Below are positions 46,873 to 60,702 of a stretch of 64,000 bases of DNA, one piece after another. The position numbers and the translations under genes were made by a program. Each line of letters starts with the position of its first letter. The stretch's first letter is position 1. Source of the stretch: Craspedostauros australis (Eukaryota; Bacillariophyta; Bacillariophyceae; Mastogloiales; Achnanthaceae); NCBI GenBank assembly GCA_026770025.1, contig JAMXDE010000013.1, forward strand, positions 434,001 to 498,000. The letters are read 5' to 3'. The notes beneath the pieces are model-generated. The model was not told the DNA's origin. It was given only the letters and a program-made list of their open reading frames with translations, and ran no database searches.

Positions 46873-48082
46873 ATGGAGGTTGAGATTGCCCACTCTGGTA
46901 TGCAAATTGTGGGTCGCAACGTGGACATGCTCACTTGCATGGAGCAACCCCCATGGCTCACCATCCTTTTCCGCAGGACGTATGGGACCAGCATCGCAGT
47001 GGCTTCTGCAGTATGGACAGCACTGACACAAGACGGGCTGCTACCAGGCAACACCACCATCAACCACATGCTTGGTGCACTCGTGTTCCTGAAGCAATAC
47101 GTTCCATGGGAGATTCTTTCAGTGATGCTGAATAGGGATCGCAGAACATTAATGAAGTGGACATGGATTGTTTTGGAAGGCATTGCACGACTGAGCAGAA
47201 CAAAGGTGAGTGAACTTGGTGCTGTGTGCGGAGATGACTTGAATGCGTGTGCTTGCCTGACATGACTCACATCCCTTGCACATGCTCAAGTTCCTTTTTG
47301 TATCACTGCAGATCAGAATAGAGGAACGAAAGAATGGCAGTGTTGGTCACAACACTGTTTTCATGTCCGTGGATGGCACCGACTTTCGGATTGTGGAGCC
47401 CAATCCTTTCGACACAGATTGGTACTCTCACAAATTCAATGGAGCAGGCCTCAGATACGAGACTGGTGTGTGCATTCAGACTGGCCATCTTGTTTGGGTC
47501 GAGGGTCCATTTCCATGTGGGGAGTGGAATGATGTAACCATTTTTCGACGCAAGCTGAGGCAGGAACTGGACGAAGGGGAGCAGGTGATTGCGGATCAAG
47601 GCTACAGGGGTGAGCCTTCGTGTTGCATTGAGAGGACCAGATACAATGGAGTGATACGTGCAAGGCACGAAACAGTTCACAAACGCTTCAAAAACTGGAA
47701 GTGCTTGCGGGTGGAGTGGCGGCACCAACTTTGCAAACACCAATTGGCAATGTATGCCATCGCAGCTATCACACAATTCGAACTGCAGGATGAAAATCCT
47801 TTGTTTGACCTGCAGGAGACCATGGCGGATATCAGGGAAATGGAGAATTGGGTGGCATCACTGGCGCCCCCCTCAGGAGCAGCCGCCTCACGGGAGGTGG
47901 ATATGGAGGAAATGGTGGAGGAAGCAGCCAGAAGCGACAAGAGCAAAAGCACAACGAGCGAGGGCATGGACGACAGCACAACAAGCGAGGGCATGAGTGG
48001 CAGCACAACAAGTGGGAGCGTCAGCAGCAGCCCAACGAGTGGCAGTGCAAGCAGCGATGACAGCAGCTCTGGACGGGAGTGA
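46873..48082 (+). CDS. HARBI1-like DDE transposase / nuclease (Harbinger type)
   Basis: Exons are 46873-47205 and 47312-48082; the intron 47206-47311 has donor GTGAGT, acceptor CTGCAG and phase 0. The product is 367 aa from ATG 46873. The helical N-terminal part (INHMLGALVFLKQYVPWEIL) precedes the DDE domain. The likely triad is D132 (SVDGTDF), D185 (EWNDVTIFR) and E231 (RARHETVHKRFK). VIADQGYRG and RHQLCKHQLAMYAIAA are the usual Harbinger/DDE_Tnp_4 landmarks. The C-terminus is a low-complexity Ser/Thr tail with degenerate TSEGM repeats. The intact frame and catalytic residues suggest a recently active copy. Confidence 0.82.
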
Positions 48083-49740
48083 GCCGTCTGGTGCATAATA
48101 TAATTTTCTCACATAGTCCCTACCTCAATGTCGTATCGTTCATCTGGTGTTGCACAAGTAGCTGCGTTGTTGTTTGTCATTTGCGTTGGTGCTACCCGCA
48201 ATGGAGTTTGTTGTGGCTGTCAGTGAATTGCGGAAGAGCGTGCATGCATGTGCGAGCACCCATGCTGTGAGAAGGAAAACGGAAAACAACACTGGCACCT
48301 CCAAAGAAAAGACTACAACAACCATGTAGCACGAATGGCCAACACAACACTGTTATGGTTTCACAACACAATGCATGTTTAGCTGTTCACTGCAATGCAC
48401 CTTGCTTGAGGGTGGCATGTAGATAATGCGGATGTACGAAAAGGAGCATGGCATCCCCACCAGCTTCGGAGTGTTTTGCGTTGCCTAGAAGGTCGACACT
48501 AAAATGCCCCACTGTATGTTGATGATCTCAACAGAACTGACAATACGAGCATGCACATGAACCTCATTCCCAACAACAAGGATAGTCATTGACATGTCAA
48601 CGAAGGAACGAACGGCTGTACCAACACACCTGACAACAACAAAAGAAGGACACCAAAATCCAGAGAGACAGTGTGGACAGAATCACCTCGGTTGCGATCC
48701 TACCATGGCAGTCCTAGTCATCCAGAAACCAGGACAAGGAGTGCAAGCAAATGGACAGTTTTGTGCATGGAGGGAATGCAGCCACCCACAGGAAGCCCCT
48801 TGTTCGATCTGCATGATGGGCGAACACAACGTGTATCGAACACAAATTGAGGCATACAACGAACTACAGCCAAGCATTCCATTGTTGCTGTGGCACAGTG
48901 GCAACCAAGCAACTAATTCACCGGACATCATTGCTGGTGCAGGAAGAACTGTTCGAAGAGATGAATTCCAGTTGCATCGCATACAGGAGCCACCCATGGA
49001 CGAAACACTGTTGCAGTGGTGATGTTGGTGTACCTGTTGTTGTTGTTATTGTTGTGGTTGTGGTTGTGATTGTGATTGTAACAGGAACGAAGTGCTCTGT
49101 GGAGCAATGATCTCTGTGGAGAGTGTTGGGGTTGTGAGTTTTGTGTGCTCTGCGCTGGCCCAAGACAGCAGCCTTGTTTTGCGCGGACCGGAGACGAAAA
49201 CACGCTCAGCAAACACCGACACAGTGTAAAGTGGGGAAATGGAGCAATGACGAAGAGCGAAAGCAACTCGGGCGAATTTTGGGGGGAAAGCACCAATTAT
49301 CCAAAAAAGAACGAAAATGCCATATTATTCCGTCGAGGATAAGAACTAGGCGGAAACAAGCAATTTATGACTTAAACGCTATGAAATAGAGCCAATTATT
49401 GCATTTTGAACTGCCCCCCTTGCCTCTTGCACCAGTATGAGTATGTAATAAGAGTATGCAATAAGAGTAGTCGTATGCACGAGCAGGGAACGCGTACCGA
49501 TGGATTGGTCAATGGTCAATGTCCCTTTCTCGCATGCGTCCCTCTGCGTCGGTCTGTGTCAGGCTTCGGTTCCGTTGCAGTTGCGCTGCGGTTGTGCTGC
49601 GACTGTGGCTGTACCTGCTCTGGAGCACGCTCTCTTGAGTATTGCGGCTCTGTTGCGATTGTGCACATGCGTCCGTCTCTCTGTTGGTGGGAGAATCGAT
49701 TCGCAAGCGAAGGCCTTGTCAGACAGTGTTCGTAAACGCA
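48083..49740. other. 3' part of Harbinger-like region and host flank
   Basis: About 1.6 kb. A GT/TTG-rich simple-sequence tract lies at 49026-49080. The proposed right end of the element is near 49419. From 49423 to 49740 is host flank preceding the long-TIR element. The open frames (for example 48594-49022, +) carry no recognised domain. Confidence 0.4.
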
Positions 49741-49910
49741 CTAGGAGCCCCCCGAGTGAGTCGACCTGCACTTTGTCCTGGGACTCAACACCTTTTTTCT
49801 CGGATATCCAAAAAAGTTACATATTCATAATCCCCATATTCTAAAACCAAATACTGATTCAAATCACTTTCCGGTTAGACCTTATTTTAAGTTTTATGGG
49901 CCCATCAAGG
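49741..49910 (+). repeat. Left terminal inverted repeat
   Basis: 170-bp arm matching the right arm in reverse complement. Mismatches cluster at TIR positions 62, 73-78, 114, 125 and 159. Confidence 0.95.
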
Positions 49911-51593
49911 TGCTAATTTTTAGACTGCTTTAGGGACTCAGCCTTTGACAGCCGACTACATCGATCCAATTTAACCCTTTGCTGTTCTTTGTTTCAGCAA
50001 GTTTGTTCCGATTTTGAATTGTTTAGTCTCTTTTTCAGGTGTTCGGATGAGGCCATCCAACAGTCCATCCACGATAGCACTAGTTGTAGAATGTTGGGGG
50101 AAGCGGTGAATGCGCTTTTACATGCATTCAACCATGTGCTCGGACGATCCGTCATCGACGTCACGAAATTGGATACTTCGTCATGAAACACCAATGATAT
50201 CACGATGCGCAACATCATCAGGTCTGCTTCGTCGTGGCGAAGTGGTTGAGCGGGGTTGGTACTCCTCGAGTGTTTTATGTTGTGCTCCTTTTGGACAGTC
50301 ACTACAATTCTTGGTAAATCTCCACATCCCCCAATATGTGAGGCTGGTTGAGAGTGGCAAACTCGACACACCAACATGGAAGTGGAGCCACACCAAAAAA
50401 ACATCCACAATGGCCGTCGAACGGTATGCTTGGCGCCGCAACAACCAGCCGGCCAATTCAAGATTCAAGCATATCGCCGTCACCGCCATGCAACCTTTGG
50501 TGGGTGGACGAGCGGAGGCGGGAAGAGGGGTTGATTTGGGGCCGTCGTAGGCCCCAGAAATACGATCACAATTTGGCTCCAAATCGGCTGGTTGGTTTTG
50601 GCCTGTGTGTGGCACACACAGGTTATATCAGCGCCTATGGATGCGCAAGATGCCTCAAGGAGGCCAAGATGAAGGCACCCTCGAAGTTTGAGGGTCGCGG
50701 AGCACCGGGAAGGTGTCCGCGCGGAGGCAAAGGTGGTTTTGAGGAGTTTTGGTTGGGGCTCGCCTGGCACCGGTCGCGTGGCTTTGGCTGTGAGGGGCGA
50801 TGGGACGACGCCCCTCAATCGCAAAGCCACCCATACAAGGTGCGTGCGACATCAATTGAAGATGCACGTCGTGAAGTGTGCGCCATGGATATGGTCTACA
50901 AGAGGCTGCAGCTGACCATATCTGCAGAATGGTCGTTGTTGGTGGGAGCAGAAAATGCACCACCACATCATCATATGGAGGTGTACCACGTCGGCCATGC
51001 ACTCCCAGCCCATTCTGGATGCATCCGCGTGTCGCCATGGAGTGTGGGAATGCACGAGGAGCGCTTGGAGGGGCTGAAAGGGTCATATGGATGAGGTATG
51101 GATCCGTATCCATACCGCATCCGGATTGACAACGTTTTTTGGCAATTGCTCTGTTCCAGTGTGTGGCTGCATTGCTGCATGCAGAGCCAATGTCTGTGGC
51201 CAGCCTTCATGGAGTGGATAGCTGGGGGTATTCAGAGCGAATGGTATGCACAGTTTGCTGAAATACAAGGATGATGATAATGATCATGTGTGCTCATTGG
51301 AGGGCAACATTGTGGCATCAGCATTTTTTTCCGAATCCACCACACAAAACACAGCAAACCAACATGACTTCCAAAATATTTTCTATACTCATTTAACTTC
51401 AATATTCTGATAAACCGATAATCATGCGTATTAATGCAATGTTTAGATTTAATTGCAAGCGATGTGTTGTTGAGATATGGCATGACAAGCAGATATTGGA
51501 TGTGTTTTTGGATGGCCTCTAGACTCGTTGTAGTAGCATGGTCTGCCACCCACAAAACTCCACAACTAGTGTTATCGCGGCGATGCACATCCA
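49911..51593. other. Transposon interior downstream of the transposase
   Basis: About 1.7 kb inside the long-TIR element. Frames exist on the plus strand (50110-50550 and 50348-51094), but they have no recognisable domain and compete with each other. I make no gene call; a second, intron-containing or decayed gene is possible. Confidence 0.4.
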
Positions 51594-54500
51594 TCACAAA
51601 ATTTCCGTCCCATCATCCAACACAGCCTCACTTTCTGTGTTGGCCTTGATTGTGTCAGCATCACACCACATCTGATGATCCAGCTCCTCTTCTTCTCTCT
51701 GCAACTCCTCTTCTCTCTGCTCCTCCTCTGTTGCAGCTGGCGCATTGTGGGTCGCCACGATTACAGATGCTGTTGCTGTGCTTGTTGGGTTGGTGTTGGT
51801 GTTGGTTTCCGCCTTGATGAGAGAGGCCTCCTTCTTGTCCTTGCGTTGTTTGGCGTTGTACGCTGCAGACAGCGACGCTTTCACGCGCATGGGATTTGCG
51901 TGCAGTTGTACGTACCAGTCAGTTTTGGTCCTGTTGTCGTCCATCAATTGTTCGTGTGCTTCGTGTTCGGATGGTCTGTTTTTCGGGTCCTTCGCGGACG
52001 CTTCACTGATGTCCTTCAACTTGTCCGCGATGTAGTCTGGTAGTTCCGCTGGTTTGCGCGTTGTTTTGCTCGCCCAGCCTGGCACTGCGAGTGGAGGGTG
52101 TTCGGTTTCGGCGGTCTGGTCTTGTAGCGCTGTGGTGTGATCGGATGGTAGATGTTGTTGTCCGTCTGCGATGGCTTTACCGAACGCCAGCCCCTTGCTC
52201 TCTGCCGCTGTGCGCCCGAGTTTTCGCGTCTTGTCCGTCTTCCTGAACGATTCGGACGTTATCGGCAGCTTGTCGGACGTGAACGTTCTGTCCTCGAGGA
52301 CACCCAGCTCGTTGACAATCCAGCCATCCCATTCGGTGCTCTTGACCACGACGTCTTCCGTGATACCAGATGCAGCCACCAACCGCGCCTGGTCATCGTC
52401 ATACTTCACCTCGTGAGTTTGACGTACCTGTTGTCCGTTCGCGCGGAATCGTCGTTTTGGTGCGCCAGGAAGCGTGGTGATGTTGCCTTGGAGGGATGAC
52501 GCGTTGACCAGTACCGTGGTGGTACCCGCGATGTTACCAGCTTTCAGCGCAAGGAAGAGTTGGAACGGGGTCTTGATGTTGCGTCCACTTTGCACGTATT
52601 TTCGCAGTACACGGGTGATGTACGCGAAGTGGGTGTCCAGCATGCTCTTACCAGTTTGGGCCTCTGTGTAGATCCATGCGATGATTTTGGCCGCCTTTCG
52701 TGTCGCAAGGTTCTTGTTGAGTACCGATGTGATGAGCGCGATGTGCTCATGACTGGCAAAACAACACGCGTTATCGCTCTGGAAGATGATTTCAGTCACG
52801 GATGGGTGAATGTCTTTGACCGTTTTTTGCAGGATGTCAAGTAGTCCACCAACTTGAAGTGTGTCTTGTGTCGGTCTTCCGCCGACCACAATGTCAATGA
52901 ATCGATAAGTAAAAATGTCGTTGCGACACGTGATGACCATCGCCCCAAGCAGTGACATTCCCTTCTTCCCCCAATATTCTTGTTGGGCTTCGCTTTGGCC
53001 TGTCGGTAGAATTTTTTGCTTATGGTCGAGTACCACATAGGCTCTTTCAGGCTTATCATTGAGTTCGGATTGATAAAAGGCGATTTGTCGGAATTGCACT
53101 TTGGCACGCACTTTGTGAGCCATGTAGTTAACAATTTCATTGGCGAATCCCGGCGCCGCCGCAAGCATTGATTGCAATTCGTCCGTGTGTTCTGCGAGTT
53201 CGTTGTCCTTAAGCATTTCGACGAATGGGACAAAACGATCATTCACAAATCGCATTGCTGATCCACAACGGTTGCATACTTTACGTGGTTGTTCGGTCGT
53301 GGTGGTGGGAGAAGTGTCATTTGTGACGGTTGGCGTGTCGCTTTTGAGAGTGTTCTTCTTGCGCTTGTGCTTGTTGGTGCGTGGTTTGCGTTGATTGGAG
53401 GATGTGGTTGTTGCCTTCTTCTTCTCCTTTCCGGTGATGAGTGCGAACGCAGCCGAATGCATGGGGTCATCACACTGAAGCTGCATGTGCGACGCGGTGA
53501 ATTCCCATTTGAGGAACACAACAAGCAGCTCGAGCGCATGCAAGAGGGAATCGGCTGTGCGCACATGTGGAGAGATGACGTCATCTGGCTTGTCGTTGTC
53601 GCTGTTGCTGTCGCTGTCGCTGTCGCTCTCGTCATTGGCATCGTTTTGTTCCTCCCCGTCTGTTTCATACTTAGCCTTCAGTAGGTCTACTAGGCGCGAA
53701 ATTGCCTGTTTGAGTTTCTCCGTCGCCATCCAGAAGTAACTCTCGAAGGAAGAGAGGCCCGTCTTGATCTTGCTTTTGCGTGTTAGTAGGTGGGTCATGG
53801 TGGTGAAAGCGGGCATTCCCACTGGGCGGTTGGTCGTAGACGAGTACATGTCGAATAGTTGTTCGATAGTCGTGCTTCCTCGATCGAACACCGGAACATT
53901 TTCAAAATTGACACCGCCATACTGTACTGTGTGACTCAAACCTGCCTTGTATGTTGCAGTGGTCATGAGGAAAGACGTCACACCAGACAGGTCACAGGCA
54001 GGCACACGATACTGGAGAACTCTTGGCGGGATGATTTTGCCGCGGCTGAAAATTTCAAAAGCATGTCGCAAGGTTGTTAGTTGACTCCGGGTCATAGTAG
54101 CGCGTGCAGGCTTGACATGAATACGTTGTTCCTCTGGAAGAGTCTCCACGTGATGAGACAGGATTGCAGAGCTGTTAGTGAATGTCGTAGATGCAGCAAG
54201 CACAGCCCTGGATGCGTTAGCCAGTGTCTTTTCCCCCCTCACACAGAGGGTGTATAGATTCGGACCGAGTGTAGTTGGTGGAAGGTCCACGCGAGCACGG
54301 ACAAACGCCACCACCTGTTGCATCTGGCGAGTTGGCAATGCCTCACAAGGGAGCAAGACACCCCAGAGTGCAGTAACCACAGTAACCCATACGCGTGTCA
54401 CGTCCCACCATGTTTGCCTGTCACGCTGGCCGCCAAGCACGAATCCCGTGGGAGGCATGGCGTTAAACACGTCCATGTTGATCTGATCCGTGAGCTCCTC

Positions 54501-55133
54501 CATCACACGGATCACAGCATCACGTCTCCAGCTCCCCTCCTCTGCTGTATCACCCTTGAACTTGCCGCCCCTCCTGCCCCTGCCGGCGCGCATCTGTTCC
54601 TCCTTGTCGTCCATGTAGGTGCTGTCACTGTCATGGGAGGGATCCGCGTAGCCCCCAGCAACAACAGCATTGCAGCGACGAGGGAGCCTCGCTGGTGGGG
54701 CAGGCTCGACAGGTGGTGCAACGTCGGCCACAGCAGGCGGGGGTGGCGCGTTCACGACAACGCTCACCGAAGTCCCATCGCCAACACCTCGTCCCTCGGA
54801 TCGCACCCTGACGTTGGAGTTGTCGTAGGCGCTTCCGTTGTTGTCGAGGATGTGAACGTACACATGTAGCTCGCGAGCGTGCGCATGCGTACCGTTCGGG
54901 ACGAGGCTGCCATCTGCTGCGAGCATCGGCTTCACATCGATCACTTGCGTGATGGTGCTCGGCTTCCTCAATGCAGCAGATGGCTTGTCAGGCAACAGTT
55001 GCTCGACAGTAGGCAGCAAGTTCCCCTTCGAATCGAAAGGAGGAGCAGACATGGGGTCAACAGAACGCAGTTTCTTACTGGGGGAGGGGTTAGCATCCTT
55101 GGAGTGGGCCTTGGCAGCGGTAGAGGTAGACAT
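51594..55133 (-). CDS. Large RNase H-fold (DDE-like) transposase candidate of the long-TIR element
   Basis: 1,179 aa from ATG 55133, in good context (ACC-ATG); the frame extends upstream only to a TTG. The N-terminal 250 residues are charged/low-complexity (DPSHDSDSTYMDDKEEQMRA). The middle has an acidic Asp/Ser run (DESDSDSDSNSDNDKPDD), a Lys-rich basic patch (KHKRKKNTLK) and CNRCGS, a possible half zinc ribbon. The putative catalytic core is D703 in YVVLDHKQK, D787 in IIFQSDNACC and E824 in YTEAQTGKSMLDTHFA, followed by SGRNIKTPFQLFLALKAG. The D-83-D-36-E spacing fits an RNase H-like fold. I recall similar proteins in oomycetes and algae but cannot assign a superfamily. The frame is intact over 3.5 kb, which suggests a functional or recently active copy. 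Confidence 0.72.
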   Translation of the reverse strand: MSTSTAAKAHSKDANPSPSKKLRSVDPMSAPPFDSKGNLLPTVEQLLPDKPSAALRKPSTITQVIDVKPMLAADGSLVPNGTHAHARELHVYVHILDNNGSAYDNSNVRVRSEGRGVGDGTSVSVVVNAPPPPAVADVAPPVEPAPPARLPRRCNAVVAGGYADPSHDSDSTYMDDKEEQMRAGRGRRGGKFKGDTAEEGSWRRDAVIRVMEELTDQINMDVFNAMPPTGFVLGGQRDRQTWWDVTRVWVTVVTALWGVLLPCEALPTRQMQQVVAFVRARVDLPPTTLGPNLYTLCVRGEKTLANASRAVLAASTTFTNSSAILSHHVETLPEEQRIHVKPARATMTRSQLTTLRHAFEIFSRGKIIPPRVLQYRVPACDLSGVTSFLMTTATYKAGLSHTVQYGGVNFENVPVFDRGSTTIEQLFDMYSSTTNRPVGMPAFTTMTHLLTRKSKIKTGLSSFESYFWMATEKLKQAISRLVDLLKAKYETDGEEQNDANDESDSDSDSNSDNDKPDDVISPHVRTADSLLHALELLVVFLKWEFTASHMQLQCDDPMHSAAFALITGKEKKKATTTSSNQRKPRTNKHKRKKNTLKSDTPTVTNDTSPTTTTEQPRKVCNRCGSAMRFVNDRFVPFVEMLKDNELAEHTDELQSMLAAAPGFANEIVNYMAHKVRAKVQFRQIAFYQSELNDKPERAYVVLDHKQKILPTGQSEAQQEYWGKKGMSLLGAMVITCRNDIFTYRFIDIVVGGRPTQDTLQVGGLLDILQKTVKDIHPSVTEIIFQSDNACCFASHEHIALITSVLNKNLATRKAAKIIAWIYTEAQTGKSMLDTHFAYITRVLRKYVQSGRNIKTPFQLFLALKAGNIAGTTTVLVNASSLQGNITTLPGAPKRRFRANGQQVRQTHEVKYDDDQARLVAASGITEDVVVKSTEWDGWIVNELGVLEDRTFTSDKLPITSESFRKTDKTRKLGRTAAESKGLAFGKAIADGQQHLPSDHTTALQDQTAETEHPPLAVPGWASKTTRKPAELPDYIADKLKDISEASAKDPKNRPSEHEAHEQLMDDNRTKTDWYVQLHANPMRVKASLSAAYNAKQRKDKKEASLIKAETNTNTNPTSTATASVIVATHNAPAATEEEQREEELQREEEELDHQMWCDADTIKANTESEAVLDDGTEIL

Positions 55134-55668
55134 GGTGAAGTTGTTGCTGTAGAGTATAGTTGTTGGCTGGTTGGATGTGATGAACTGCACTGGTCTGAGA
55201 TGAAGTGAGGAAGGAGAGCATGCGATGATGGGTCGACCATTCGTTGGCAACAACAACAACTACTACTACTACTACACTACCACTACACTACCAGAACGAG
55301 CACTAACATTGAACACAAGAGCGAGCACGCATGGAATTGGCGAGGAAAGTTGTGAAATGGAGCGAAAGTGTGGCGATGATGTGTGAATGGTGAGGGGGTG
55401 TCGATGATGTTGGATGGGATGTGTTTTGTGTGATGTGTTTTGTGTGATGTGTTTTGTGTGATGCGTTTTGTGTGATGTGTTTTGTGACGAGCAAAATGTG
55501 AGATCATGCGCCACATGCTAACGTGTATTTAACGCGTACCAACCGAACGACATCTTCGACACCGTCTTCGTGACTGAGTACCATCCGATAAATAATCAAG
55601 AACATCACAGAACCTTCTGAGAAACAAGTAGGAGTTTCATGGGGTTCGACCCATACGACTCAAAAATG
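55134..55668. other. Transposase 5' flank within the transposon
   Basis: About 530 bp between the transposase start and the right TIR, presumed promoter. It contains a 14-bp minisatellite and a CTACTA-rich tract. Confidence 0.45.
55418..55487. repeat. 14-bp tandem repeat, 5 copies
   Basis: GATGTGTTTTGTGT units start at 55418, 55432, 55446, 55460 and 55474. They lie upstream of the transposase inside the transposon, a possible transcription or transposase-binding site array. Confidence 0.93.
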
Positions 55669-55838
55669 CCTTGATGGGCTCATAAAACTTAAAATAAGGT
55701 CTAACCGGAAAGTAATTTGAATCATTATTTGGTTTTAGAATATGGGGATTATGAATATGTGGTTGGTTTGGATATCTGAGAAAAAAGGTGTTGAGTCCCA
55801 GGACAAAGTGCAGGTCGACTCACTCGGGGGGCTCCTAG
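55669..55838 (-). repeat. Right terminal inverted repeat
   Basis: 170-bp arm, reverse complement of the left arm with 9 mismatches. Ends ...GGGGGGCTCCTAG. Confidence 0.95.
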
Positions 55839-58071
55839 TACTACGAGTTCAAAGAGGAGACCGCCAAACGCCTGAAACAGATGCCGATGGTGGGAAACGA
55901 CTGGGCGTGTCGCCTTTGACCACGTCCAACACACATCCAACAAGGGACGATGGTCCCCCAAAGAACATCTCGTTCACTGCGAAGGCCGTTCGCTGACCTG
56001 CGGAAGTGCACAAAACAGCGAGCGTGGCAATTTCGTCCTCCTTGCCGCACAACCTCCTGCGCCCCCTCGATACACCAGTACCCAAGACATGGGCGCATGA
56101 CGCGTACATTCCCTTCAGTGAAGCCAAGGCACAAGAACGGAGAGAAGAGTGGTCACGGACAGGTCGTTTCGTTCGTAGAAACTATTTGCGTTTCGATGTC
56201 GGGACACCTGGTGACGTCAGCTCAATTATCGCGTCGCTCGTTCCTTGGCGAGCCGACTTCCATTCTTGCCGAGTTTCTGAATTCTGTCCGCCAGCTTGTC
56301 CTTCCATCCCCATCGCCAAAAGGTTTCTCCGAAATGTGATGCTCCGCGTCATCCTGAATTCGACACTATTTCAGCGCCTTCTCGTCCCATGTTGTTTTAG
56401 TCCAGCGGGTCATCAATCAGCTGTTCTAATCCAACGAGTCATAGTATTGTTCGCTCACCAACTTTCTCGATTTTGTCACTCGGACGCACAAAGGACGCGG
56501 TTGTTCGACTCAAGAAAGAACAGGAATCCCTCTTCCGCACGTTGACCAGCTGCCCACGTTCCTTCCGCTCCCAGAAATTCTGCGGATTCACCTGGCCATC
56601 GCCCGTTGCGCAACACGTCGGTGTCCTCCAGCGATCTTCCTGAGCTTTCTCACGGGACCTCGTTCGTGAACGGACAGTTCACTGATTCGGATTGGTGGAG
56701 TGAATGTCGCAGGACGTGTCAAGTGCCAGCAGTTCGTGCCAGAACAGATTTCTCGTAACCATGACTCGAACCATTTGTTCTTTGGCGTGTTGCTTGCAGG
56801 GCAACAAGTTCCAAACTTTGACGTAAATTGTGTGCGTGGTGGAACATCGGTGCCTGCAGTAAAAGTTCCAAAGATCGCGGCATGTGCCAACGGCATCGGA
56901 TGGGGACGGAAGCAGAGATTGGAGAAGAGGGTGGTGTGCATCTGTGTGGACGTAAAAGCACCACAACGCGACGTAACGTAACGTAACGTAACGTAACACG
57001 ACACGACACAACACAACACATCAACTCGGCGTGACGTGACACCATTTTTCTACGGCACAGCACTGTGCTATTCGCACACTCCAAGGATCGACCAACTTCT
57101 GCATCTCTCTCTCTCTCTCTTCAACAGGTCACAAACTTCATTTAACTATTTTGTTGGTACGTTCTGTTGGTTCATCATCATCATCATCATCATCAGTCAT
57201 GGTGGTGGTATTGGCATGAGCAGGCATGCAGGAAGCACTTGGACAAGGAAGCATGCAAGCCCCATCCATCTCGATATGCATCCATCCATCCAAGCACCCA
57301 TCCATCCATCAATCCACATGAGTCGACGACGATGACAAGCCACGCTCCGAGAAGAAAAGACGTCAACAGAAGTCACGGTCGCACTTTCTTTGCGGTGGCT
57401 GTCGTCGTCATCGACATGTGCAAGATGGTGGTGATGGTGCATGTCTCTGTGCACATCATCACAAGTCATGTCGAGTTGATGGGCGTGCTTCGTTGGGCAA
57501 TACTCGGAATTGCATTCATCTCATCTGTTCTCATGTGATGTGATGCGGTACGCAACGCATCGATGAGGTTCTCATCATGTCTGCACCACAAGAAGAACGG
57601 ATACAACTGCTGCACACAATGTTGGATTGCACATCACTCACCAAGCTCTCTTCTCCAAACCATTCATTCCTCACATCTTTCATGGATGTGCCTTCATTCT
57701 TTCACACAATACAAATCACCGAAATGCAACGGACCATTTGATTTATTGATGTAATTCATTCGACGCCATACTAATTATCATCGATCATCTCATCTCCGAT
57801 GCATCTCTCGTGTTCATCTCAACGACCGTCATGGATCGAATGAAACGAATGAACAAACACTTCACTCGATGGGTCGAATTCAATGTAATTATTGGATTGA
57901 ATTGATCATCATCAATTCGTCATCTATGAACATGCAATGAACGTCATGCGACCACATCATTCATGTCCAAATTACCATTGAATTCCAATTGCGATCCCAT
58001 CCAATGCACAGACTCTCGTTGTAAACCAAAACCCGAGACGACCAAACCAAAACAACAGCAGTTCAACAATA
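55839..58071. other. Spacer between transposon and nitrate reductase
   Basis: About 2.2 kb. The longest frame (56006-56545, +) has no recognised domain. Tandem GTAAC (ACGTAACGTAACGTAACG near 56970) and CAT runs (57172-57195, and CATCC near 57276) are present. The part nearest 58071 must contain the nitrate reductase promoter, which is AT-rich with ATCAT/AATTGAAT words; no defined element was placed. Confidence 0.4.
57172..57195. repeat. (CAT)n microsatellite
   Basis: CAT trinucleotide run upstream of nitrate reductase. Confidence 0.9.
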
Positions 58072-60702
58072 ATGGCGCCGCAAGAAAAGACATCGCAGCC
58101 AACAGCTGAGGAGCTGTACGGACCGTACCCATCGGCCGTGCCGGTCCCGTTCCTCTCGAAGGAGGGGGAAAGCCCACCGCCGGAGGAAATTGCCAAGGCC
58201 AAGTCCTACAAGGACCTCTCCGGCAAGTACCCGGACTACCGCGATGCCGGAACGCCAGATGAGTGGCTCCCACGTGACGGACGCCTCGTGCGCCTCACGG
58301 GACGTCACCCATTCAACGTCGAGCCACCTCTCTCGGTTATCAACGAGACCAGATTCATCACACCATCCTCCCTGCATTACGTGCGCAACCACGGTGCCTG
58401 CCCCCAGCTCTCCTGGGAGGAGCACACCATCCACGTCGGCGGCGAGGTCTCCAACAAGCTCGACCTCACCATGGACAAGCTGGTCGATTTGTGCCCGCAC
58501 CGCGAGCTCCCCGTCACCCTCGTCTGCGCCGGCAACAGGCGCAAGGAGCAGAACATGATCCGTCAGACCATCGGATTCAACTGGGGACCATCCGGTGTCT
58601 CCACCAACGTCTGGAAGGGATGCCTGCTGCGCGATCTCCTCTTGGCGGCTGGGGTCGACAGCGACAACATGGCCGGCTACCACGTCGAGATGATCGGGGT
58701 GGAGGATCTGCCAAACAAGGTCGGCCCAGGCCCCTTCAAGGATGAGCCATGGGGCAAGCTCGTCAAGTACGGAACCTCCCTGCCGCTCACGCGCGCCATG
58801 AACCCGGCCTACGACATCCTCGTGGCATGGGAGGCCAACGGCGAGCGCCTGCAGCCCGATCACGGCTTCCCGGTGCGCATGATCATCCCGGGATACATCG
58901 GCGGCCGCATGATCAAGTGGCTCAAGCACATCAACGTCATCCCGTACGAGACCAAGAACCACTACCACTACCACGACAACCGCATCCTCCCACCGCACAT
59001 CACGGCCGAGGAATCCCTCTCCGGAGGATGGTGGTACAAGCCGGAGTACATCTTCAACGAGCTCAACATCAACTCCGCCATCTCCAAGCCGGATCACAAC
59101 GAGACCATCGCCATCGCCAAGAATGTCGACAAGATGTACACCCTCTCCGGATACTCCTACACAGGAGGCGGCCGCGCCATCACGCGCGTCGAAATCTCCC
59201 TCGACGGCGGCACCCACTGGCAGCTGGCCAAGATCGACCGCAAGGAGAAGCCAACCAACCACGGCATGTACTGGTGCTGGATCTGGTGGGACTTCGAGAT
59301 CAAGGTCGCCGACCTCGTGGGTGCCAAGGAGATCTGGTGCCGCGCCTGGGATGAGGCCAACATGACGCAGCCAACCCACCCCACCTGGAACCTCATGGGC
59401 ATGGGCAACAACCAGGTCTTCCGCACCAAGATCCACCTCGAGCAGGCCGCCAACGGCGAGCACGTCTTCCGCTTCGAGCACCCAACCCAGCCAGGACAGC
59501 AGCAGGGTGGATGGATGACGCGCATTGCCGACAAGCCGCACTCCGCTGGTTTCGGAAAGCTCCTTGAGATCCAGGCCGATGCCAACGACGACGTCCCACC
59601 ACCACCGGCAGCCAAGACCGCAGACGGCGCCAAGAAGATCTTCACCATGGACGAGGTCAACAAGCACAACCACGAGGAGGATGTCTGGATCGTCGTCAAC
59701 AACAGAGTCTACGACTGCACCGACTACCTCGAGCTCCACCCAGGCGGCATCGACTCGATCACCATCAACGCCGGTGAGGATTCGACCGAGGACTTCGTCG
59801 CCATCCACTCCATGAAGGCGACCAAGATGCTCGAGAGATATTACATCGGCGACCTCGATGTCAGCAGCATCAAGAAGGACGTCAAGGAGGAAGAGCTCAC
59901 CGACGCCCAGGGCCGCAAGCTCGCGCTGAACCCACGCAAGAAGACACCATTCAAGCTGCAGAACAAGATCGTGCTGTCGCGCGACTCCTTCCTTCTTGAT
60001 TTCGCCCTGCCAACCCCAGAGCACATCCTCGGCCTTCCGACCGGAAAGCACATGTTCTTCTCCGCCACCATCAACGGAGAGGTCGTCGTGCGCCGCTACA
60101 CCCCAATTTCCTCCAACTTCGATGTCGGCACCGTGAAGTTCGTCATCAAGGCCTACCGACCATGCGACCGATTCCCGGAGGGAGGCAAGATGTCCCAGTA
60201 CTTGGACAACCTGCAGATCGGCGAATTCCTCGACTTCCGCGGACCAGTCGGTGAGTTCGAGTACCTCGCCAACGGCGACTTCCTGCTGGACGGAGAGGCC
60301 TGCAAGGCCACCAAGTTCAACATGATCGCCGGAGGAACCGGAATCACGCCGGTGATGCAGATCGCCGCTGAGATCCTGCGCCATCCGCAGGACACGACGC
60401 AGTGCTCCCTCATCTTCGCCTGCCGCGAGGAGGGTGATCTCCTGATGCGCTCCACACTCGATGAGTGGGCCGCCCAGTTCCCAGACAAGTTCAAGGTGCA
60501 CTACATCCTCTCCGACGGATGGCCAAAGGACTGGAAGTACTCCACAGGCTTCGTCGACCGCAAGCTCTTCGAGCAGGAGCTGTACGCGCCAGGCGACGAC
60601 GTCTTCAACCTGATGTGCGGACCACCGATCATGCTCGACAGAGGTTGCACACCCAACCTCACCGCCATTGGGCACACGAAGACCAACCTCTTCTCCTTCT
60701 AA
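58072..60702 (+). CDS. NR: Nitrate reductase (NAD(P)H), complete
   Basis: 876 aa in a single exon from ATG 58072 (ATA-ATG). It reduces nitrate to nitrite in the cytosol, the first step of nitrate assimilation. Domains are in the usual order. The molybdopterin/Mo domain has the Mo-ligating cysteine at residue 152 (CAGNRRKEQ) and GYIGGRMIKWLKHI. The dimerisation domain is followed by cytochrome b5 with the haem-binding His in HPGG at residue 556, then the FAD domain (RRYTPIS from R674). The NAD(P)H domain has GGTGITPVMQ (from G754) and the conserved CGPP cysteine at residue 849; the C-terminus is NLFSF. No introns and strongly biased third positions (G/C-ending) suggest a highly expressed gene. 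A partner nitrite reductase or transporter is not in the window. Confidence 0.97.
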   Translation: MAPQEKTSQPTAEELYGPYPSAVPVPFLSKEGESPPPEEIAKAKSYKDLSGKYPDYRDAGTPDEWLPRDGRLVRLTGRHPFNVEPPLSVINETRFITPSSLHYVRNHGACPQLSWEEHTIHVGGEVSNKLDLTMDKLVDLCPHRELPVTLVCAGNRRKEQNMIRQTIGFNWGPSGVSTNVWKGCLLRDLLLAAGVDSDNMAGYHVEMIGVEDLPNKVGPGPFKDEPWGKLVKYGTSLPLTRAMNPAYDILVAWEANGERLQPDHGFPVRMIIPGYIGGRMIKWLKHINVIPYETKNHYHYHDNRILPPHITAEESLSGGWWYKPEYIFNELNINSAISKPDHNETIAIAKNVDKMYTLSGYSYTGGGRAITRVEISLDGGTHWQLAKIDRKEKPTNHGMYWCWIWWDFEIKVADLVGAKEIWCRAWDEANMTQPTHPTWNLMGMGNNQVFRTKIHLEQAANGEHVFRFEHPTQPGQQQGGWMTRIADKPHSAGFGKLLEIQADANDDVPPPPAAKTADGAKKIFTMDEVNKHNHEEDVWIVVNNRVYDCTDYLELHPGGIDSITINAGEDSTEDFVAIHSMKATKMLERYYIGDLDVSSIKKDVKEEELTDAQGRKLALNPRKKTPFKLQNKIVLSRDSFLLDFALPTPEHILGLPTGKHMFFSATINGEVVVRRYTPISSNFDVGTVKFVIKAYRPCDRFPEGGKMSQYLDNLQIGEFLDFRGPVGEFEYLANGDFLLDGEACKATKFNMIAGGTGITPVMQIAAEILRHPQDTTQCSLIFACREEGDLLMRSTLDEWAAQFPDKFKVHYILSDGWPKDWKYSTGFVDRKLFEQELYAPGDDVFNLMCGPPIMLDRGCTPNLTAIGHTKTNLFSF

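Follow-up and report, generated by a model that had tools for sequence, protein, structure and literature searches.

What kind of mobile element occupies positions 49741-55838 of the window, and which enzyme moves it? The window is the 64,000-nucleotide stretch of contig JAMXDE010000013.1 (positions 434,001 to 498,000, assembly GCA_026770025.1) of the diatom Craspedostauros australis, and all coordinates below refer to it unless a copy elsewhere is named. An earlier sequence-only reading had proposed a complete DNA transposon whose large transposase it could not place in a named superfamily. Our analysis supports an autonomous transposon with terminal inverted repeats (TIRs) of the DDE/D type, i.e. 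with a ribonuclease H (RNase H) fold, and with the 1,179-residue protein as its transposase (probability about 0.9). We infer the catalytic role of this protein, excision by cut-and-paste, the 4-nt stagger of the target cut and the identity of the residue that completes the catalytic triad; the evidence is given below.

Boundaries and target sites of the element

Self-comparison of the window gave inverted arms at 49740-49910 and 55669-55839, 171 nt each and 95% complementary, in agreement with the arms described before. The proposed span of 49741-55838 proved to be exactly the element together with both CTAG duplications:

49745..55834: whole element, 6,090 bp, GAGCC...GGCTC; edges set by the duplication and by eight further complete copies
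49741..49744: left target-site duplication, CTAG, the same 4 bp as on the other side of the element
55835..55838: right target-site duplication, CTAG, likewise
49745..49910, plus strand: left TIR, from arm self-comparison and comparison with copies
55669..55834, minus strand: right TIR, on the same evidence

Thirty insertions were examined. In each of the 26 with both ends readable, the 4-bp duplications on the two sides were identical, the second base being T and the third A (NTAN); 24 of 24 came from a scripted flank table and two CCCG-type copies (GTAA and ATAT) were read separately. Thus the suggested check of the flanks for TA or CTAG duplications yielded CTAG at the window copy and a TA-centred 4-bp target throughout the readable insertions. 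A direct empty site was provided by the inner copy on C9, whose flanks, once joined, match a sister element as a single stretch of 349 bp with 97.7% identity. The C12, C15 and C33 insertions are likewise nested in arms of related elements, with no more than 26 bp past the junction for C33; C44 adjoins the end of another element with ATAT common to both. These insertions in or against related arms (C9, C12, C15, C33, C44) suggest self-targeting or tolerance.

Copies in the genome and recent activity

The genome searched, which includes the window, comprised 74.8 Mb in 90 contigs. The left arm gave at least 43 matches (best 40 of 226 candidates scored), hence the arms are multicopy, and homology did not continue into the flanks, which differed at the 24 tabulated copies. 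This excluded a segmental duplication. With up to one mismatch the terminal pattern matched 138 times in forward and 133 times in reverse orientation, compared to 0 and 0 for the reversed control; a chance palindrome was rejected on these 271 matches versus none. The counts point to some 130 elements in the genome.

The 100 ends listed, out of 271, formed 38 pairs, 31 of which spanned 6.0-6.1 kb and seven were longer, while none was shorter; 24 ends had no partner. There were two main end types with either CCCG or GATC at bases 7-10 of the 21-bp tip. Among 55 exact CCCG-type ends, 26 of 27 forward ends had a reverse partner that was likewise CCCG-type (20 spans of 6.0-6.1 kb, 6 longer, 0 shorter). 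Internally deleted or miniature derivatives below 5.9 kb were absent from the 38 and 26 pairs listed, which are partly shared. For an abundant TIR transposon such an absence among the listed pairs is unusual.

The long copies C65, C2, C12, C25, C33, C40 and C4 contained inserts with long open frames of 1,361 to 2,016 amino acids where not cut by the edge of the stretch. The two inserts scanned, those in C65 and C4, were of the Copia type (Pfam RVT_2), and a 12-kb span on C9 contained a second copy of the element. A larger composite element was rejected on the basis of these opened copies; the long pairs C8, C11:1004403 and C24 lie outside this examination.

Nine complete copies free of inserts were aligned. 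Seven of them, including the window copy, were 95-99.5% identical to each other, and the other two shared 83-86% identity with this group. Identity was highest (99.5%) between C51 and C42b, which carry different duplications, CTAG and TTAT, and therefore represent separate insertions. A search of the genome with the protein showed that the best 39 of 570 candidates all cover at least residues 4-1177, and 36 of the 39 are free of internal stops. Because copies of up to 99.5% identity reside at sites with different flanks and duplications, reading frames are intact and selection on the gene is evident (see below), we concluded that the family was recently active. The sequence-only reading had reached the same conclusion from the intact frame and the identity of the two arms, and the argument from the arms did not hold: arms within a copy differed at 1 to 17 of 167 positions across the nine copies, of which seven are 95-99.5% identical. 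Arm identity alone is no clock.

The transposase gene

51594..55133, minus strand: transposase gene, 1,179 amino acids in a single open frame, from the open reading frame (ORF), the indel and third-position pattern and the ratio of nonsynonymous to synonymous substitution rates (dN/dS)

The frame is intact, as the sequence-only reading had it. It runs from the ATG at 55133 to the stop at 51594-51596 and sits inside an open frame of 1,221 amino acids. In comparison with the two divergent copies C44 and C6, frame-breaking indels, single-base and others, reach to 9 bases before the ATG. Within the gene, 8 of 8 indels in C44 were multiples of three, as were 5 of 7 in C6, where the remaining two, of 4 and 14 bases and separated by 15, sum to 18. 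The ATG at 55133 is supported by frame-breaking indels ending before it and by in-gene indels keeping the frame. Substitutions relative to the divergent copies C11, C6 and C44 favoured third positions in most 300-base blocks of the gene; the preference was not clear in the block at element positions 1201-1500 nor in the opening stretch around the ATG. No steady third-position bias was seen outside the gene in these comparisons, and single-base indels were common there. dN/dS was 0.22-0.29 in six pairs of copies, calculated without the first 60 aligned codons, which include a part before the ATG. Thus the transposase gene is under purifying selection.

The catalytic core

52503..53045, minus strand: RNase H-like DDE/D catalytic core, approximately residues 697-877, from the predicted order of secondary structures and structure matches
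53025..53027, minus strand: D703, first catalytic aspartate, on the first core strand; invariant in a 37-row alignment
52773..52775, minus strand: D787, second catalytic aspartate, final residue of core strand 4; likewise invariant in the 37 rows
52635..52637, minus strand: D833, most likely the third catalytic residue, fourth in the helix that follows strand 5; invariant in a 36-row alignment
52662..52664, minus strand: E824, the third residue of the sequence-only reading, directly after strand 5; invariant in the 36-row alignment

The core is predicted to have an RNase H-like, integrase-like fold. The predicted structure places one carboxylate on strand 1, another at strand 4 and a third in the helix that follows strand 5, as in DDE/D enzymes with an RNase H fold. 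D703 and D787 were invariant in all 37 rows, with E824 and D833 present in at least 90%; when the fragment P0034 was left out, all four residues were invariant across the remaining 36 rows. The proposed triad of D703, D787 and E824 was therefore right as to the conservation of its members. As the third catalytic residue, E824 would make the enzyme a DDE (DD36E) transposase, and its invariance is consistent with this. Yet, E824 is predicted to follow strand 5 directly, whereas the equally invariant D833 appears as the fourth residue of the following helix. In addition, the second lineage described below has a long insertion between D787 and E824. In retroviral integrases the catalytic glutamate occupies the place at which D833 lies in the predicted secondary structure. 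We therefore consider D833 most likely the third catalytic residue, giving a D-D-D triad, and a role of E824 in its place unlikely.

Searches for structures gave no match at E≤0.001 in BFVD. A sequence search of the PDB had as its best hit a carboxysome shell protein with E 0.033, which we judged to be due to chance. The cores of retroviral integrases and of the Tc1/mariner transposase Mos1 were only 11-16% identical among the structure matches listed, and families missing from that listing are not thereby excluded.

Homologues of the transposase

The window protein had no match in Pfam at E≤1, so that a non-transposase family, which would have spoken against a transposon, did not appear in the profile search. 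In all, 15 different proteins of the family were scanned and none matched a Pfam transposase family at E≤1; the relatives among them gave only sub-threshold matches to unrelated families. Homologue searches retrieved 7 proteins with E-values of 3.6e-72 to 3.3e-25 and, in a second search, 34, the two weakest at 4.1e-12 and 1.3e-11. Together these are 36 different proteins (P0001-P0036); a search based on an alignment (A1) had no match. One homologue is from the diatom Dactyliosolen fragilissimus and the others are from metagenome, transcriptome and genome sources, i.e. the diatom evidence for the family consists of one named species. No relatives were found in viral contigs, prokaryotic genome contigs and phage records.

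The window protein formed a long single branch in the 36-row tree, without a starred close group; its best identity was 40% over 282 columns. More distantly related are P0035 and P0036 (profile match 99.7%, E 2.8e-26), which may resemble uncharacterised animal proteins. They share with the window protein D703, D787, E824, D833 and a C-terminal GWA block, and their identity to P0005 is 27%. The majority line for 15 relatives in alignment A5 opens with a cysteine/histidine cluster, which is not present in the window protein.

Further lineages in the same genome

A genome search with P0005 yielded at least 89 matching stretches (best 47 of 386 candidates scored) and revealed further lineages of the family. 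The second lineage encodes a frame of 1,320 amino acids (L054:2340-6302), which shares 28% identity with the window protein across 1,020 columns. Its element at C14:801589-818347 is about 16.8 kb long with 135-bp terminal repeats (GACCCGG...), and other copies measure roughly 9 to 32 kb. Of six copies, five could be read at both ends; in C27 the right end is altered. Matching duplications were present in four of the five (C14 ATAA, C28 CTAA, C35 CTAT and C3 TTAA), thus the NTAN rule holds in two deep lineages. For a third lineage (C52:358210) the boundary was reached at L067:34 with a repeat flank, and no inverted partner was found.

Proposed mechanism

The data are consistent with a core of D703, D787 and most likely D833 that would cut at the GAGCC ends. 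The cut ends would be joined to the target with a 4-nt stagger across NTAN, and repair of the stagger would generate the 4-bp duplication.

Several results weigh against this interpretation. A plain Foldseek search of the PDB had no match at E≤0.001; the best was a herpesvirus terminase nuclease with E 0.027, a fold that we take to be RNase H-like too. Pfam scans showed no sequence match to any named transposase family. For four of the 30 insertions a duplication could not be scored. The left end is degenerate in C54 and was not located within the stretch for C52; C19 is altered at its right end, and the sequence for C1:2612138 comprised the right arm only. In the second lineage, copy C43 has unequal flanks, CTAA and TTAT; it shares the left flank with C28, which makes a rearrangement likely. 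Finally, neither an excision footprint nor a strain with an empty allele was seen. Nevertheless, target duplications, dispersed copies, the empty site in a sister element and the predicted integrase-like fold bear out the reading as a complete DNA transposon that encodes a large transposase.

Superfamily placement

We assign the element to a DDE/D transposon family and leave the superfamily open. Sola is the nearest named candidate by length of the duplication, length of the TIRs and the probable DDD triad. The published features used here come from passages of articles in PubMed Central (PMC). The earlier statement that the element cannot be placed in a named superfamily is in line with the lack of a Pfam match at E≤1, but since Sola was compared by description only, it is no proof of a new superfamily.

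Membership in Sola, perhaps Sola1, is a serious candidate at somewhat less than even odds. Sola elements are described with 4-bp duplications, a DDD transposase and TIRs of 11-1124 bp (PMC10741241). The element shares the 4-bp duplication in the 26 readable of 30 insertions; its triad is probably D-D-D as well, with D833 favoured by predicted secondary structure and E824 also invariant. Its TIRs of about 166 bp fall into the reported range, which is so wide that the fit carries little weight. Furthermore, the second lineage consists of giant elements, and giant Sola-1 elements, one of 21.5 kb, are known from the brown alga Ectocarpus (PMC12477816). On the other hand, duplications of Sola2 are reported to be AT-rich with the consensus AWWT (PMC3627910), in contrast to the TA-centred NTAN; AWWT fits 4 of 26 duplications here, while CTAG, GTAT and TTAC do not fit.

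A separate, undescribed eukaryotic DDE/D superfamily with the NTAN 4-bp duplication as its hallmark is possible, yet rather doubtful. The NTAN rule is common to two lineages of only 28% identity, all 15 scanned proteins lack a Pfam transposase match, and no description of the family was found in the open PMC literature (titles, abstract openings and passages including PMC4455052 and PMC11071193). Yet, a missing match is weak evidence, and the comparison covers neither Repbase nor the Sola paper. Such a superfamily would span two or more deeply separated lineages (6-kb and giant) within one genome, with related transposases in a diatom and other sources, and might tentatively be defined by NTAN duplications, GA(G/C)CC termini, long TIRs, a DDD transposase of about 1,000-1,300 amino acids with a C-terminal GWA block, and no internal-deletion derivatives among the listed end pairs.

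Other superfamilies differ in their descriptions. Tc1/mariner elements duplicate 2 bp, TA, whereas here the outer two bases are duplicated too in 26 of 26 cases. piggyBac and Kolobok share a 4-bp duplication centred on TA, but are specific for TTAA (PMC9587614), which occurs in 1 of 26 here. PIF/Harbinger elements (PHIS) have a DDE_Tnp_4 domain and duplications of 0, 2 or 3 bp (PMC12730594), in contrast to a transposase without Pfam match at E≤1 and a 4-bp duplication; it is a neighbouring ORF that matches DDE_Tnp_4. The C(2)C and H(3-4)H motifs between the second D and the last acid of CACTA/EnSpm-Mirage-Chapaev-Transib (PMC12730594) have no conserved counterparts between D787 and D833. Similarly, the C/DxxH motif between the second D and the last E of hAT, MuDR, P, Kolobok and Dada (PMC9587614) is not conserved in our alignments. 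Ginger termini are TG...CA (PMC10741241) instead of GAGCC...GGCTC, and Zisupton and IS3EU duplicate 8 and 6 bp (PMC12730594) instead of 4 bp.

Other features of the element and its surroundings

49911..51593: internal segment without coding signature, from third-position and indel patterns between copies and an Rfam scan
55418..55504: tandem array of 14-bp units, just upstream of the transposase gene
58072-60702, plus strand: nitrate reductase-like gene, 876 amino acids, with molybdopterin, Mo-co dimerisation, cytochrome b5, FAD and NAD domains, about 2.2 kb from the element
47276-48082, plus strand: DDE_Tnp_4 (Harbinger/IS5-like) transposase ORF, Pfam E 1.3e-7

The internal segment showed no steady third-position bias, single-base indels between copies and zero matches in the Rfam scan. 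A second element-encoded gene at 49911-51593 was rejected since both a coding signature and an Rfam match were absent. The 14-bp tandem repeats are possibly a regulatory or transposase-binding sequence. The ORF at 47276-48082 is apparently a remnant of an unrelated transposon.

Significance

The element adds a well-defined transposase family to a part of the eukaryotic mobilome that is poorly classified; the ends and the target rule of the family are exact, and intact copies number in the dozens. Its intact ends and open frame make it suited to a direct transposition assay, and the family alignment can aid the annotation of unclassified algal elements. If Sola does not cover the family, the list of eukaryotic transposon superfamilies would need a new entry.
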